In this document: piece by piece, positions 17,834 through 55,800 of the stretch
Layout of the letters: every line of letters starts with the position of its first letter
How positions within the stretch are numbered: the stretch's first letter is position 1
Source: Campylorhamphus procurvoides
Taxonomy: Eukaryota; Chordata; Aves; Passeriformes; Dendrocolaptidae
DNA length: 64,000 nt
Direction of reading: 5' to 3'
Assembly (NCBI GenBank): GCA_013396655.1
Contig: WBMV01006536.1
Coordinates: 41,452 to 105,451 of the forward strand
The notes under the pieces: generated by a model
What the model was told of the DNA's origin: nothing
The model's input: only the letters and a program-made list of their open reading frames with translations
The model's database searches: none
Program-made: the position numbers and the translations under genes

Positions 17834-24214
<6,381 letters not shown>

Positions 24215-30497: not shown

Positions 30498-39144
<8,647 letters not shown>

Positions 39145-39146
39145 GG

Positions 39147-40234
39147 CTGCCAGGAGAGAAAAAGGGAGCAAAAATGAAGCATCACAAATGGCAAATACCC
39201 TTCAAACAAGAGCTGCAATCAATTAAGGGATGGTGAATCACAGGGTTCAGGTTTTAACAACCAACGCCATCAGCGACGAAGACCAAGCAGGGAAAATTCT
39301 TACAAAATCAAAGGTACAAGTCAAACTTCCTGTTTTGAACATATTTGATCTGAAAATAAGAGGGAAGGAAACTTAAGAAACAGGGTGCCTCAAAAACCAC
39401 AATTTCAGCCAGTGCTGCAAATGCTTCTTGCTCCCAACACATTGTATCTCTATTAAATCCTCAAAATTCAGGAATATCACACTGAAACACCAAATCCAGA
39501 AGCTGCTCTTCCTACAACCCCTGCAGAATTCACTCCATCAGTTGCCTGCTGGCTCTTCTGCTGAGAAATTCATCAAACTCCTGAAAGTCATCCCAATAAC
39601 AGAGCAAGGAACTGTTCCTTGCTGAGGAAGGACCAAAAAAGGCATTTAGCTGCCTCTAAGCATTTTCCTAGATGTTTTCACCCAGAAATTTGGCCAAATC
39701 CAGAGGAATCAGTGCCTTTGAACAGGCTGCAGTTTAAAAAATACCCACAAAAGCAAAACCTATAAGTGTAAGCACCCTATATATTTATTTCTGAGAAAAA
39801 CACATGTTTTCATACCTGACAACCCACCTCCACTTCCTAAAATGCACTAAAAACATGAAAAACTACCTTGGTCCTCCTGGGCATCCCAGAACTCACACTG
39901 AGGGAACAGTTTTGTGACTATTCCTAGAAGTTGCAGCCAAACAGAGGTGAGACCCTTCCCCTTTGTCCACCCTGGTGCTGCCAAGGAGCTCTGAGTGACT
40001 CTTTCTGTTCTCTCTTTGCAGCTGTTTTGGAGGTGTCACCTCCCTGACACACCCCAACCCCTTGGGGACAGCCCTGGCAGGTTCCTGGTGGGACAGGAGC
40101 GGGTAAGGGATCTCCAGCTGGGTGGGTTTGGGGTGGAAATGTGTGTTTATGTGAGGTGGGGGCTTTGGGGAGGAGCAGCTCTGACACCACACAAAGAGGG
40201 GGGCATGTTCTTTACACAGGTGTTATATCCTGTG
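39147..40234. other. STK38 5' intron or flank, no feature seen
   Basis: Unique sequence upstream of the STK38 start-codon exon. The needed untranslated exon is not visible with confidence. A weak candidate begins at the GC-rich patch 40630-40720, with a poor donor gtgctc on the - strand. Confidence 0.4.
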
Positions 40235-43248: not shown

Positions 43249-44568
43249 CTAAGGGGAATGGCCCTGTGGCTGCGTGCTGGGATTTCTCTTGCTGCCCAGC
43301 TCCTTCATTTGGAGCTGCTCAAAAAGCCCTTGTGGGTTCCAGTTCCCCTTTGGGGTCTTCCAATCCAGCTGCTTCAGTGGGAGGAACCCCCGCAGCTCCC
43401 GCAGCTGCTTCCTCAGGCTGGGAGTCTCCTCTCCCTCGCTGCTGCTGTGCAGATCTGAGGGGTCCTGGCTGTTGTGTGCAGCCCCCAGGGCGGTGGGGAG
43501 GGGGATGTCCCTGCTGCTGGCGGTGTGCACCGTGCCCAGGGCGTGCTGGAGCCACCGCAGGCGCTTCAGCCCTTGGAACGCCCTGCCTTTGTCATGCAGG
43601 AGCTGGAGCTCGGTCACTGCTCTTCTGCTGCGGGGAGAAAGAGGGAACGAGGGAGCAGAGCTGCTGATGGGCATCCAGCAGTGCCAGAGGCTCCTCTGCA
43701 CTGAGGAAGGGGCGTTTTCTCCCTCTCACTTTGGTCCAGCAGCCCATTCCTGAAGATGGGAAGCTGAAACCCCAAAGATGGACTTGAATCTCCTATTTCT
43801 TAAACAAAGGCAAACTGAAAAGACCAACAAAATGACCTGAGCAGGTTTAAAGAGCTCTCACAGAGGTGGGGACTTTCTCAAATTGAGATTCTCTTTAGAA
43901 TAAAATTCCCTTTACGTCACCTCAGAGTTATGGATTCTTGGGTTTGTTTCTCTCCTCCCAGAGCTGGAAGTCAGGAGTAATTTAGCTGGAATCTCTGATG
44001 TCCACGAAATAAAAACAAGCCCTTCTTTTCTTCGGATGCTTCAGATTCTTCAAAAATGTTGAGCCAAATGTTGAGTGAGGAGGGCAGGCTAATTGTGGGA
44101 TGCAAATATTTCAGGATTTCAGGCTGTTCAGATAATATCCAACTGCAGCTATAGGCTCCTGCTGCAGATTTGGATCCAAATGGGAAACTAAATATGGAAT
44201 TTTAGCATGTGCCATCTGCATGTTGAACATCCTTACATGGTTTGTACACTGTGTTTAAAAGCATCAGCTGAAATGTGGTCCATGTTACACATCTAAAAAT
44301 GCAATTGTCTAATTTTAAACTGCAGGGAGGGTGATGTAAAATATTGCTCTATGAAATATATCAAATTCTCTTCTCACCAGGCCTGGAGTGAGTGACAGCA
44401 GTGCAGAGCACAGCCTGTTCAATCAAAACCAGGCAGTTTTCTAATTGCATTAATGAAGCAAAAAGATGATATTACTTACTTTTCACTATCTTGACATGTT
44501 GCAAAACAGGCAGAAAAAAGAATTGCCAAAAATGTAACTGTCTGCAGAGATCTCTGGGGCAGGAACAT
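43249..44568 (-). CDS. PTH4: Parathyroid-hormone-family prepro-hormone (PTH-L / PTH4 type)
   Basis: Two coding exons on the - strand, 44568-44480 and 43627 (or 43624) to 43249, join in phase 2 and encode 154-155 residues. The start ATG opens MFLPQRSLQ, followed by a hydrophobic core (VTFLAILFSACFA), a clear signal peptide. A short pro-segment (QDSE plus KR or RR) precedes the mature start AVTELQLLHDKGR. Reading the mature chain as residues 1-34, the PTH/PTHrP positions are kept: V2, E4, L8-H9 region, G12, R20, W23, L24, L28, V31, H32. The AV-E-QLLHDKG start is closest to PTHrP, while W23 is PTH-like; this mosaic is what is known for the third family lineage (PTH-L/PTH4), reported in fish, Xenopus and chicken and absent from eutherians. 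The product should be secreted and act on class B receptors PTH1R/PTH3R in calcium and bone control. The C-terminal 89 residues resemble neither PTH nor PTHrP that I can recall. Family assignment is secure; the lineage name is less so. Confidence 0.93.
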
Positions 44569-45099
44569 TTTCTCTCTTCTTTAACTCTGCTCCACAGGAC
44601 CAAGAGCTGATGGTGGGATCAGAAATCTTCCCCTCTGTTCTTCCTTTCACCTGACAAAATGAATTTCAGCCCTTAGGCACAGGTAAAAAAGGAGTATTGT
44701 GCAATGAGAAATCATCCCAGGACCTCCTGGAACATCAAATGTGTGGATCTGAACATCCCCCAGGAGAGGATGAATAGGATTGACAGTCCATTTCTGCATT
44801 GCCTTGCTCAGAGTCCTAAATCTCCTTTCCCAAAATTGCCTCTCAGGGTAACACTTCTCACTCTTGTGCATTTGCAAGCAAATTTCAGGGCTGGGAAGAG
44901 ACCAGCCTGATAAAAACTTCACAGAAATCTGACAAGCAGATCAGGATTGCTGAAAATCACAGAACTCACAAAGACTGGAGCAGGAATATCAAGTTAAAAG
45001 CTGTTCATAGCCCTGGGGTTTGGGCCTTTCCCACGTGCTGACATCCAGATATCCAGGATTTTAGTAGGTTGATGCCAGATTTCAGTGAAGAAGTGGATT

Positions 45100-45240
45100 T
45101 CTGGCTTAGGGAAGGGACAACCAGATGATGTAATTGTGCAAGGATTATTTTAATCCAAATTACAACTTCATCCAGCTCTATATCTGCTCCTGGCATTGAT
45201 ACTCCTCTTCCTACCCATTCCTTCAACCCACCACATCCTT
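45100..45240 (-). repeat. Interspersed repeat, copy A (pair with 47897)
   Basis: This roughly 140-bp block starts 'tctggcttagggaagggaca' and shares about 80% of bases by eye with 47897-48035 in the same orientation. It lies in intron 1 of the PTH-family gene. I do not recognise the family; strand is arbitrary. Confidence 0.65.
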
Positions 45241-45910
45241 ATTTCCAGGTCTATCCCTAACATTTCTGCATTTTTCCCACTAATGACTTAATTGGCTCCA
45301 GCCTGGCCCTTTAATCATTTACCAGACAATCCTCTATTAATTGTTACATCAAAACCCAGAGAGACAACCAAACAAAAGCTGCAATATTTAAATTGTCATG
45401 TAAGAATAGTAAAGATCTGTTCCTGTATAATTCTTCAAAGAAATATTTCTTTTTGTGCAGAAGTTTGGGATAATAAAAACTCAGCATCTCCTCTAATGAC
45501 TTGTCTCTGTACTAACTTGAATATTGGATTGTCAAGGGTTGGGATAGAAAAGCAAATTATACATTAATATAACACAAATAAATTATATATTTGCTTGTAA
45601 CAATTAAGCTTATTCTTAAAAAGTCTGCTCCATTCATTTGTGAGTAATTTCCTTGGGCAACACATTGAAATCAAACTAGAAATGAAACAACAAGTGGGTA
45701 TTAGTCCTGACTAAAAATACCTGTATTAAAAGCAGATATATGCACATAAATATACATATAGATGTATTTACCTGCTGAATGATACATGATTTAAGTTATG
45801 CTAATGCAGAACTCCTACACAACAGAGAAGCAACACTCTTGTGATCATCAGCAAAATACATGTTAATTAAAAAGCATCTTCCAGTGACAAAAGGAACATT
45901 ATCTGCTTAC

Positions 45911-45990
45911 TGGTGGTTGTTTGAGCCCAGTGAAGTCCCGAGCAGCACAAGGTGTGTCCTGCCAGTCCTGTCCTGATGTCTCCACGCAGT
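45911..45990 (-). other. PTH4: PTH-family gene untranslated exon 1
   Basis: On the - strand a TATAAAAG box (46020-46013) is followed about 30 nt later by a likely start site near 45990. The short leader ends at 45911 with donor gtaagc (45910-45905). An exon of about 80 nt, then intron, prepro exon and hormone exon, reproduces the classic three-exon layout of vertebrate PTH genes. The acceptor of the prepro exon is probably at 44606 (after 'ccaccatcag'), with 44586 as an alternative. Confidence 0.6.
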
Positions 45991-46012
45991 GACACCGAGG
46001 GCCCTTCCCCTG

Positions 46013-46020
46013 CTTTTATA
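46013..46020 (-). promoter_or_regulatory. PTH4: TATA box of the PTH-family gene
   Basis: A consensus TATAAAAG on the - strand sits about 30 nt upstream of a short exon with a good donor. The surroundings are not a CpG island, which suits a tissue-restricted, TATA-driven hormone gene. Confidence 0.6.
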
Positions 46021-52097: not shown

Positions 52098-52852
52098 GTG
52101 AGGATCTTCACCCCGCAGGGCTTCTTTTCAGGGCGGCGGGGTGGGCGGAGGAGGCGGCGCGGCAGCCCGCGGTGCCGGGCCCCGGCGGGGCGGATGGAAG
52201 CGGCGAACAAAGAGCGGCCGCCATTTTGTGGCGGGCGGCGGCGCTGAGGGGAGGTCGCGGGCTGGCCTTGCAAGAGCCCTTTCCCAGCTCGTTCTCGGCA
52301 CTCCGTGAGGAGAAAAAAGGCGAGGCGAGCCGGGAGGAGCCGCGGGGGCGGTGTGGCTCCGTCGTGCACGCCCGCCCGAGGAAGCGCTGCTCCCTCACGC
52401 CGCTCCATAGGCAGTCCCCGGGCGCTGCCGGCGGGGCTCGGCCGGGGATGGCGCTGCCCTCCCTTCCATGTGCGCATCCCCCCGATCCTGATCCCAATCC
52501 CGATCCCCATCTAGGGGCAATGGAGCGGCCCCAGCGCTGCGCCCCCTGCGGGCCCCCCCGCGCTAAGCAGGGAAAGGGCATAGAAAACCCCACCCCACAC
52601 ACAAACACCTTCAAAGTAACTGAAATTATCCGAAACACCGAATTTTAACCACAGTGCGAGATAGCAACGCGGATTTTTAATTCGGTTTTAACACTACTCC
52701 CTCGTACGCGCCCATTGCGCACAGATTGTTTCCAGCACATCAGATCGTGTCACTGCTGAAGTTTCAGACCATCAAAACGCCTTCCTCGGAAGCGAACAAA
52801 CGCCTGCTCTGTGTTCAAATAGACGTGAACTTATTTCTTTCTTGTCCTAGCA

Positions 52853-55800
52853 ATGCATCGTGACTCTTGTCCGCTGGACTGCAAGGTTTATGTGGGTAAC
52901 CTTGGAAACAATGGCAACAAAACGGAATTAGAGCGAGCCTTTGGCTACTATGGACCACTGCGCAGTGTATGGGTGGCGAGAAATCCTCCTGGTTTTGCCT
53001 TTGTGGAGTTTGAAGATCCACGAGATGCAGCTGATGCAGTAAGAGAACTAGATGGAAGGTAAAATGTGCTTCTTGTGTGTTTAGCTTGGCTGGTAAAAAA
53101 GATAAAGTGGGGGTAGGGATGCTCTTTAAATTGGAAAAAGTTTCAACTGCAGCACCGAGGACTTGACATTTGTTATGCAGTTTTTATCTGTGTGATTAGA
53201 AGGGTTTTCTTAATAGTGCAGAAGTAGAATCCCAGAATGGTTTGAGCTGAAAGGGACCTTAAAACTCATCCCCTTCCACCCCCTGCCATGGTCAGGGACA
53301 CCTTCCACTAGCCCAGGTTGCTCCAAGCCCTGTCCAGTCTGGCCTTGGACACTTCCAGGGTTGGGGCAGCCACAGTTTCTCTGGGCACCCTGTGCCAGGG
53401 CCTGCCCACCCTCACAGGGAAAGATGGCTTCCCTATATCAGATCAATCACCCTGATGCTATTCAGGAAGAAGGGCAGGTTAATTTTGCACTTCAGAATTG
53501 GACTCCCAAGTTAGGAATGTGTAGCTATAAAGAGGCGTCACTGATTAGGGAAACTCCTTGGTTCCCTTCTTGCCTCTTACTGGCACAGCAGCTTTTAGAA
53601 CCAGCAAAACCTTTCATCTCCCAGGTGGGTTTGGGGACGAAGAGCCCTAAAAGCATCTCATTCCATCCCTTGCCATGGGCAGGGAACACCTTCCACTAGA
53701 CCAGAGGTTTGATCAGAGCTCCATTCAGCCTGTCCTTGGGACAGTTCCAGGGATGGTGCACCCACTGCCGTGCTTGAAGTCCTTTGTGAACCCTTTACAT
53801 TTGACTACAGACAGAATAGTTTTGAGCTTGTCCCCTCGTTTTCCTTCTTTGGAGTGTGGAGATTTCATTCAGTGCAGACTCTTCCCTGGCAATGCTAACG
53901 GGTGTCCGTGTCTCTCCCCAGAACCCTGTGTGGGTGCCGAGTCAGAGTGGAGCTCTCCAATGGGGAGAAGCGGAGTCGGAACCGCGGCCCCCCTCCCTCA
54001 TGGGGCCGGCGTCCCCGGGATGACTATCGCAGGAGGAGTCCTCCCCCTCGGCGCAGGTACCTGCGGGCACAGCACAGCCCTACAGCTCTTGCCACTGTTA
54101 CCACGTAGCATCCTAGAAGCAGGCTTGTTAAAAGGCATGTTGATGGGTAACATTCATCTATCTGGTCGTGATTTGGACATGACAAACGCTTCTAAAAAAA
54201 AAAAAAATCCCAAAATCACCCCCCCCACAAAATCGAGGTAAACTTCTAAGTTGTGTTGAATGTTGGCTTTTGTCCTTAGGTGACTGTGCAGTTGGTAGTC
54301 AGTGCCCTCTGTCCTGGGCTTATCCTCATTCCTCCTAAAATCTGCTCATCTTCTAGTCACACTTTTCCCTTTCTTCCCCATACTTCGACTTAGGCCGTTC
54401 CTTTCCTTTATTCCATAATGGCAGAACATGACATACAGCAGTTTAGCAGGTCCATACCGATGGGTTTCTCCGCTTTGTTTGCAGAATTTAAATACTTCCC
54501 AAGCAGGCAGCTGTTTAATAATGGATCGAGTAACAGTTGCTTTAAACATCTGGAGTCTTTACACTTTAGTTGTTAGCATCCTGTCAGTTGAGGTTTGCAA
54601 ACCCAGCTCTAATATATAGCAGGATTTTTGGGAACTGGCACGTTCTTGGACCCAGACTAGTTAGTCTGGCAGTTCAGATGTGCAGCGTGGTTTTTACAGG
54701 ACTGAATTTACCTGTGGCAGGTGAGTGAAGTCCTCCCGAGTCAGGGTTTCGAGCTTCCCCTTTTGCTGTTGAGAAAAAAAAAAATAACACATTAGGAGTA
54801 TTGTTAGCTAATAGATGGTTGTACTGATGGCTTGTTTTTCATTTTTTTTATGCTTTTTGGTCCATCTATTAATAAAAATGAACCCGTTACAGAGTCACCA
54901 TCATGTCTCTTCTCACCACCCTCTGAGTCTGCATTAGCCAGCCAACTAGCCCTTTCAGCGTCATGTGACCAGCGCGCCCCATGCAGCTTGGCTGGTGTCG
55001 TTTCACATGACCCAGGCATGGCCAGTCGTCAGGTTGCACCGCCCTTTGGTTCCCGAGCATGCTGTTTTCTCTCAGCCTTCTCTCCAACCTTAACCAAATC
55101 GGCAGCAGCCACCTCGACCGCCCACACATTCCCGGCCAATCAGCTCAGCTGTTTATTTACCAAATGTCTTCACAACAACTACAGCAGCAGCCTTCGGCTA
55201 ACAAAAAAGCAGGAAAAATCCACAACACCCCCTTCGCCAACCAACTAAATACAACGCAACATCTGGCAAAACCTTTTCAGCAAATTCTTCTTGGCAGTCA
55301 GTCCGGCAGCCTCACCTCACCATTTCTAGCTTGTTGAAACCAAAGACTTGTAAGTTTTTCCTGCTTATACAGTTTACTGCTGGTTAAAATAAGGAGTAAG
55401 CGGCTTATAAGTAATTACTTTTCTCAATCAAAGGCTGGCTGTGCATAATTGAGTGGTAACGTACATATGTTGCTTGAGAAAACTTTTAAGGGTGATACGG
55501 AAGCTCTTACACTGTGAATAACGTAAAAACCAGGATATTTGCATGTGAGATGCCAAACTAAATTTTTTTAATAAAGCTCTAACAAATGTAGCTTTTCCTT
55601 GCCAGAAAAATCCTATCACCTTTAAATGGTTTTACTAACAGTTTTCAAAACTTAAAACAATTACTTTTTGGGATGAACTGGGCCGAGCTAAGGTTATATT
55701 TTTTTTTTATTTTTTATAAGAAAATAGCCTAAACACACTCTATGGCATTAAAAATGACAATCACAAATATGCAGTTCTAATGTAGCACTTAATGGCATTA

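Follow-up and report, generated by a model that had tools for sequence, protein, structure and literature searches.

An intact PTH4 (PTH-L) gene beside SRSF3 in the woodcreeper Campylorhamphus procurvoides and apparent variability of its hormone domain in passerine birds

The best explanation, as a whole, of the gene that we describe here in a 64,000-nucleotide window of the genome of Campylorhamphus procurvoides, a suboscine passerine (contig WBMV01006536.1, positions 41,452 to 105,451) is, with very little doubt, an intact PTH4 (PTH-L), present as one copy in this genome and with the hormone action proposed below. The gene is real but already known, since chicken PTH-L, its link to SRSF3, its expression and its receptor activity have been published, and many other birds have PTH4 as well. 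Two small leads go beyond the known gene, namely the variability of the hormone domain in passerines and a leucine at residue 5 of the mature peptide (Leu5). A search of the open-licence literature, by titles and the starts of abstracts, found among the papers listed no report of PTH4 variation in passerines or woodcreepers or of Leu5.

An earlier note on this DNA had proposed a complete PTH-family hormone gene and, more narrowly, an intact PTH-L/PTH4. Both proposals are borne out: each feature lies at the place given for it, the joined product matches the Pfam Parathyroid profile PF01279 (E 4.3e-13, 50.3 bits against a curated cut-off of 22), and the PTH4 matches, the tree and the gene order support the narrower assignment. 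The match covers positions 1-47 only of the 107 in the profile. A database search with the joined product returned 151 proteins at E up to 10, and the figures given below for PTH4 rows refer to the best 120 of these 151. All 120 carry PF01279. Of those with a name the majority are annotated as PTH4 or parathyroid hormone 4-like, and a few rows have a different PTH-family name or no name. The closest among the matches listed is the annotated PTH4 of Xiphorhynchus elegans, a member of the same family Dendrocolaptidae, with 98 of 104 residues identical (94% identity over 67% of the product); likeness is lower to Furnarius (84/104), Pipra (122/155) and ostrich (105/155), and the orthologues among the best 120 of 151 include both ostrich and emu. 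Judged from sequence, the PF01279 match and the 94% identity to an annotated PTH4 are far beyond chance, and the gene is an orthologue of annotated avian PTH4. Orthology to the fish and frog PTH4 is taken from the papers cited below, because none of the rows retrieved bears the name of a non-avian PTH4; a short profile search for non-avian PTH4 gave three bird rows and nothing else. An AlphaFold model of the mature protein was of low confidence (mean pLDDT 49.3) and was set aside, a repeat scan found weak short pairs only, and the sigma-70 promoter scan is not applicable to animals.

The TATA box, untranslated exon, signal-peptide exon and hormone exon that had been described earlier are all present where they had been placed (Table 1), with splice junctions and an untranslated exon that are predicted from the letters of the DNA. 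The 5′ end of exon 1 is approximate, having been placed some 30 bases downstream of the first base of the TATA box. Exon 2 could begin at either of two possible acceptors, before 44650 or before 44606, and ends at the donor GAAAA/GTAAGT; 108-113 of the best 120 PTH4 rows of 151 have residues at its coding positions. Exon 3 begins at a tandem (NAGNAG) acceptor, where the start at 43627 gives DSENRR/A and the start at 43624 gives DSEKR/A, so that the exon phases join, as had been claimed, and the frame and the dibasic cleavage site are kept in both cases, with a product of 155 or 154 amino acids. A Neopelma row annotated as isoform X2 (P0003) is without the same extra residue, so the same acceptor choice seems to be annotated in another bird. 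The mature peptide keeps V2, E4, G12, R20, W23, L24, L28, V31 and H32, exactly the residues listed in the earlier note, and the exon layout is indeed of the PTH type, the intron before the mature peptide being placed as in the PTH and PTHrP genes of the same genome. A C-terminal block of mature residues 88-114 (43279-43359, about KTPKGNWNPQ...KELGSKRNP) is found from ostrich to passerines, and much of what precedes it is not conserved.

Table 1. Predicted features of the PTH4 gene and its neighbours, in positions of the window (a slash marks an exon end)
Feature	Position	Strand	Basis or remark
TATA box TATAAAAG	46013..46020	-	sequence
Untranslated exon 1	45911..45990	-	sequence; donor CCA/GTAAGC fixes the 3′ end, last exon base 45911
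Exon 2 coding part: ATG at 44568, signal peptide, most of pro-segment (MFLPQRSLQTVTFLAILFSACFATCQDSE and split codon)	44480..44568	-	last exon base 44480
Tandem (NAGNAG) acceptor, CAGCAG	43624..43627	-	exon 3 starts at 43627 or 43624
Exon 3 coding part with stop codon	43249..43627	-	sequence; stop ends at 43249
Mature hormone residues 1-34 AVTELQLLHDKGRAFQGLKRLRWLQHALGTVHTA, predicted receptor-binding part, Leu5 for His5	43519..43620	-
Mature residues 35-123, C-terminal part	43252..43518	-	bird-conserved block at 88-114
Polyadenylation signal AATAAA	43158..43163	-	sequence
STK38 exons	30501..39201	-	PDB matches; context
SRSF3 exons	52829..54105	+	PDB matches; context
KCTD20 exons	18805..24211	+	presumed KCTD20, named from motifs; context

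A PF01279 search of the bird's own genome found three loci, those of PTHrP (contig C2233), PTH (contig C26) and the window gene, and saw no second copy of PTH4. In principle, the window gene could have come from PTHrP or PTH by retro-copying or recent duplication, and it is true that its residues 1-20 are PTHrP-like and that its best PDB matches are PTHrP chains. However, its intron has the place and phase of the introns of both other paralogues, the acceptor lying in all three exactly 7 bases before mature codon 1 as read from the sequence; this identity of position indicates that the intron is ancestral and speaks against a retro-copy, as do the TATA box and untranslated exon, the orthologues in ostrich and emu, the separate position in the tree and the paralogous flank, in which a KCTD20-type gene lies near PTH. 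The shared intron position, the tree and the duplicated flank lead us to reject a retro-copy or stray duplicate, an origin to which we give practically no chance.

The tree, which the earlier note had proposed as a check, was built from 54 rows: 29 of the 120 listed PTH4, 22 of the 120 listed PTHrP and the three genes of this genome. It places the window gene with the Xiphorhynchus PTH4 (100/99) and these with Furnarius and Sclerurus (99/94), outside the single clade formed by the 23 PTHrP rows (100/100). Nesting within PTHrP is tested well and nesting within PTH poorly, because the tree took in one PTH row and exclusively avian PTH4, and because PTH and PTHrP stand on very long branches (4.98 and 2.81). 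In our judgement these lengths arise because residues beyond about 34 align badly between paralogues. Because the two long branches join the PTH4 rows at separate places, the PTH4 label needed two changes on the tree; the bootstrap had not settled.

The gene order is KCTD20(+), STK38(-), PTH4(-), SRSF3(+), in agreement with the earlier note, which had put the hormone gene between STK38 and SRSF3 with KCTD20 beyond STK38. An SRSF3 exon lies 6.8 kb beyond the TATA box of PTH4, and PTH-L is reported to be linked to SFRS3 in chicken (chromosome 26) and Xenopus (PMC3009671). A KCTD20 exon used as a query against the own genome gave two matches, one being the window and the other C26:1543482, which is about 30 kb from PTH at C26:1573944; 5 of 5 KCTD20 exon pieces match near PTH on C26, at 72-79% identity. 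Since BTBD10 is a reported neighbour of PTH (PMC3009671), the KCTD20-type gene near PTH is most likely BTBD10. From this gene and the shared intron position we conclude that the PTH4 and PTH loci sit in one old duplicated block and did not arise by retro-copying, as the genome-duplication account in PMC5640766 expects. The best STK38 paralogue (92%) lies on C1236 and PTHrP on C2233, and neither STK38 (0/7 pieces) nor SRSF3 (0/1 piece) has a match within 180 kb around PTH. The PTH exon of this genome (C26:1573944-1574099) seems to be without a mid-hormone stretch when set against chicken PTH.

Chicken PTH-L/PTH4 resembles the window gene in its PTH-type structure with two coding exons, its pre-pro-hormone, its SFRS3/SRSF3 link and its hormone domain, as described in the passages cited (Pinheiro 2010, 2012; PMC3009671, PMC3483286). 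It is described there as having two exons and one intron, whereas the window gene shows an untranslated exon and a TATA box besides. The chicken paper was compared by its description. At residues 5 and 8, where the window gene has leucine, all 41 non-passerine rows, those of galliforms among them, have His5 and Met8. The Xiphorhynchus elegans PTH4 (P0011, a partial record of 104 amino acids that ends before the C-terminal block) shares Leu5 and also Gly46-Ala47 in place of the usual Trp-Asp, but differs at 6 residues. With PTHrP (PTHLH) of its own genome the window gene has in common A1, V2, E4, Q6, L7-L8-H9-D10-K11-G12, R20 and the place of the intron. In contrast, PTHrP has F23 where the window gene has W23, contains a mid-region that is absent from the window gene and lies at another locus; PTHrP of this genome matches PF01279 over positions 1-106, and the window gene in part. 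With PTH the window gene shares gene structure, W23, L24, L28, V31, H32 and a KCTD20/BTBD10-type gene nearby, but the PTH of this genome has S1, M5 and M8-H9-N10, is without the PTHrP-like residues 10-20 and lies on C26. TIP39 (PTH2), a member of the wider PTH peptide family, is reported to be lost in birds together with PTH2R (for the absence of TIP39, PMC3483286), and the TIP39 profile PF14980 has 0 matches in the own genome, the control genomes being silent too.

At residues 8-10 the window gene reads L-H-D, where PTH of this genome has M-H-N and where M-H-D is said of all PTH-L peptides investigated in the work cited (PMC4354418). Leu8 also occurs in 31 of the best 120 rows of 151 (31/73 passerines, 0/41 non-passerines), so the M-H-D motif does not define avian PTH4. 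The earlier note had seen in the combination of PTHrP-like residues 6-12 with a PTH-like W23 a useful test of receptor selectivity. The mosaic is present, but it is general for avian PTH4 (W23 is found in 120/120 of the best rows of 151), and the test was done with the chicken peptide (PMC3483286).

The occurrence of PTH-L/PTH4 in fish, frog and chicken, its expression, its effects on calcium and its receptor activity are in print (PMC3009671, PMC3483286, PMC4354418, PMC5640766). An opossum PTH-L appears in a figure legend of PMC3483286, and PMC5640766 dates the loss of PTH-L to after the eutherian-metatherian split; contrary to both, PMC4354418 limits PTH-L to non-mammalian species. The sources disagree, and the cited literature suggests that the loss of PTH4 is eutherian rather than, as the earlier note had inferred, mammalian. 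In chicken the PTH-L transcript peaks in cartilage and is also found in pituitary, thyroid, parathyroid, muscle, hind brain and kidney (PMC3009671). Chicken PTH-L(1-34) has an EC50 of 7.7 nM at PTH1R and 306.9 nM at PTH3R, and its capacity at either receptor was called low (at PTH1R its Emax was 9.13, that of PTHrP 17.21); the authors leave room for another PTH-L receptor (PMC3483286).

Codon 5 of the mature peptide (43606-43608) is CTC in the window, which encodes leucine. Among the 113 PTH4 rows that cover this residue (of the best 120 of 151), 109 have His5 and the other four have Leu (Xiphorhynchus), Tyr, Gln and Gln, so that Leu5 is common to the window gene and Xiphorhynchus elegans only; a reading error is unlikely, as two separate assemblies share it. 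The earlier note had overlooked this odd residue. His5 is likewise found in 78 of the 79 pattern-fitting PTHrP rows (of 120 PTHrP rows listed). In the human peptides residue 5, which is Ile in PTH and His in PTHrP and abaloparatide, sets prolonged versus transient cAMP signalling and affects PTH2R selectivity, positions 8 and 14 being without effect on signalling duration (PMC9586930), and Ile5 together with Trp23 restores PTHrP activity at PTH2R (PMC2991341). The residue-5 data in these passages compare Ile with His. Change at position 5 taken by itself does not differ significantly between passerines and non-passerines (Fisher p 0.16), and over the whole 1-34 region the window gene is no extreme, as 16 of the 113 other rows lie at least as far from the consensus.

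Passerines seem to show far more variation in the hormone domain of PTH4 than other birds do. The best 120 of 151 rows were sorted by genus into 73 passerines and 41 non-passerines, 6 unnamed rows being dropped, and parsimony changes were counted on the gene tree with passerines held together, for 74 passerines (with the window gene) and the 41 others. Residues 2, 3, 5, 8 and 10 are invariant in 41/41 non-passerines and variable in passerines. Mature residues 1-34 took 115 changes in the 74 passerines against 22 in the 41 non-passerines, and residues 35-72 took 380 against 160, whereas the first 32 residues of the precursor (signal peptide and pro-segment) took 122 against 120. In 60 random draws of 41 passerines the medians were 71 (1-34), 233 (35-72) and 72 (precursor 1-32), so at equal sample size the 1-34 region has about three times as many changes in passerines (71 against 22) and the precursor region fewer (72 against 120). 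Measured against precursor 1-32, the excess in 1-34 has an odds ratio of 5.1 (p 4e-11), and measured against residues 35-72, which belong to the same exon, one of 2.2 (p 0.001), with the qualification that parsimony changes are not independent. Relative to the precursor it stays when the seven rows with radical changes are removed (odds ratio 4.9); relative to residues 35-72 it is not significant in the suboscine subset (p 0.08). Mature residues 1-14 and 15-34 do not differ (p 0.82). The rows are representatives of 90% clusters, and partial records among them may be template projections. A family-wide rate effect is unlikely, because the own genome and 14 hand-picked rows of the 120 listed have the same PTHrP 1-36; of these rows 2 are unnamed and 12 come from named birds, among them 4 passerines. 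The GC content of exon 3 is high (63.6%, with 81% at third positions), and GC-biased conversion may therefore contribute to the passerine changes.

Two explanations of this pattern can be set against each other. Passerine PTH4 may be losing its hormone function, the window copy looking intact yet being in early decay, which we consider unlikely. The contrast between the hormone region and the precursor at equal sample size and the variability of positions 2, 3, 5, 8 and 10 in passerines speak for decay, as do several radical changes, each confined to one passerine row (V2E; V2G with Q6R and V31G; R20C; L28R; H9N). However, the window gene keeps V2, E4, R20, W23, L24 and L28, its joined frame is open for 155 codons, its splice sites and its polyadenylation signal appear undamaged, and the counts, being non-independent steps on a gene tree, could be raised by biased conversion in a GC-rich exon. 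Adaptive change of the hormone region in passerines, by new receptor tuning instead of relaxation, appears to us somewhat less probable still. It would fit the position of Leu5 at a known switch (PMC9586930), the excess of 1-34 even over residues 35-72 and the identity of PTHrP 1-36 in the rows picked, but many of the changes either are conservative (M8L, V2L) or belong to the biased-conversion type (ATG to CTG), and the suboscines alone give no significant excess over residues 35-72. A broader account, which we put forward tentatively and think rather better placed than either of these, is that the passerine PTH4 hormone domain was freed from strict constraint and is drifting to loss or being retuned, and that in woodcreepers the change from His5 to Leu5 turned PTHrP-type short signalling into PTH-type long signalling, eased by the lack of PTH2R and TIP39 in birds.

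For the intact PTH4 that we favour, the transcript would be translated into a secreted pre-pro-hormone, from which the signal peptide would be removed and which a convertase would cut after RR (or after KR with the other acceptor). By analogy with the chicken peptide, residues 1-34 would activate PTH1R and, weakly, PTH3R, raising cAMP, and Leu5 in place of His5 may give longer-lasting, PTH-type signalling at PTH1R than the PTH4 of other birds. The own genome contains two ectodomain exons (on C1494 and C1165) whose best solved relatives are PTH1R chains, candidate PTH-receptor exons that we picked from 21 ectodomain-family matches by a motif. Reduced hormone activity is also possible, because His5 is changed and the 1-34 region seems to be under weaker constraint in passerines.

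The gene adds one more well-preserved case of a hormone lost in placental mammals. Leu5 is a single, cheap and testable change at the residue that sets the duration of signalling. If the passerine pattern holds, it would serve as a natural experiment and show how a hormone of bone and calcium can become dispensable or come to behave differently at its receptors.
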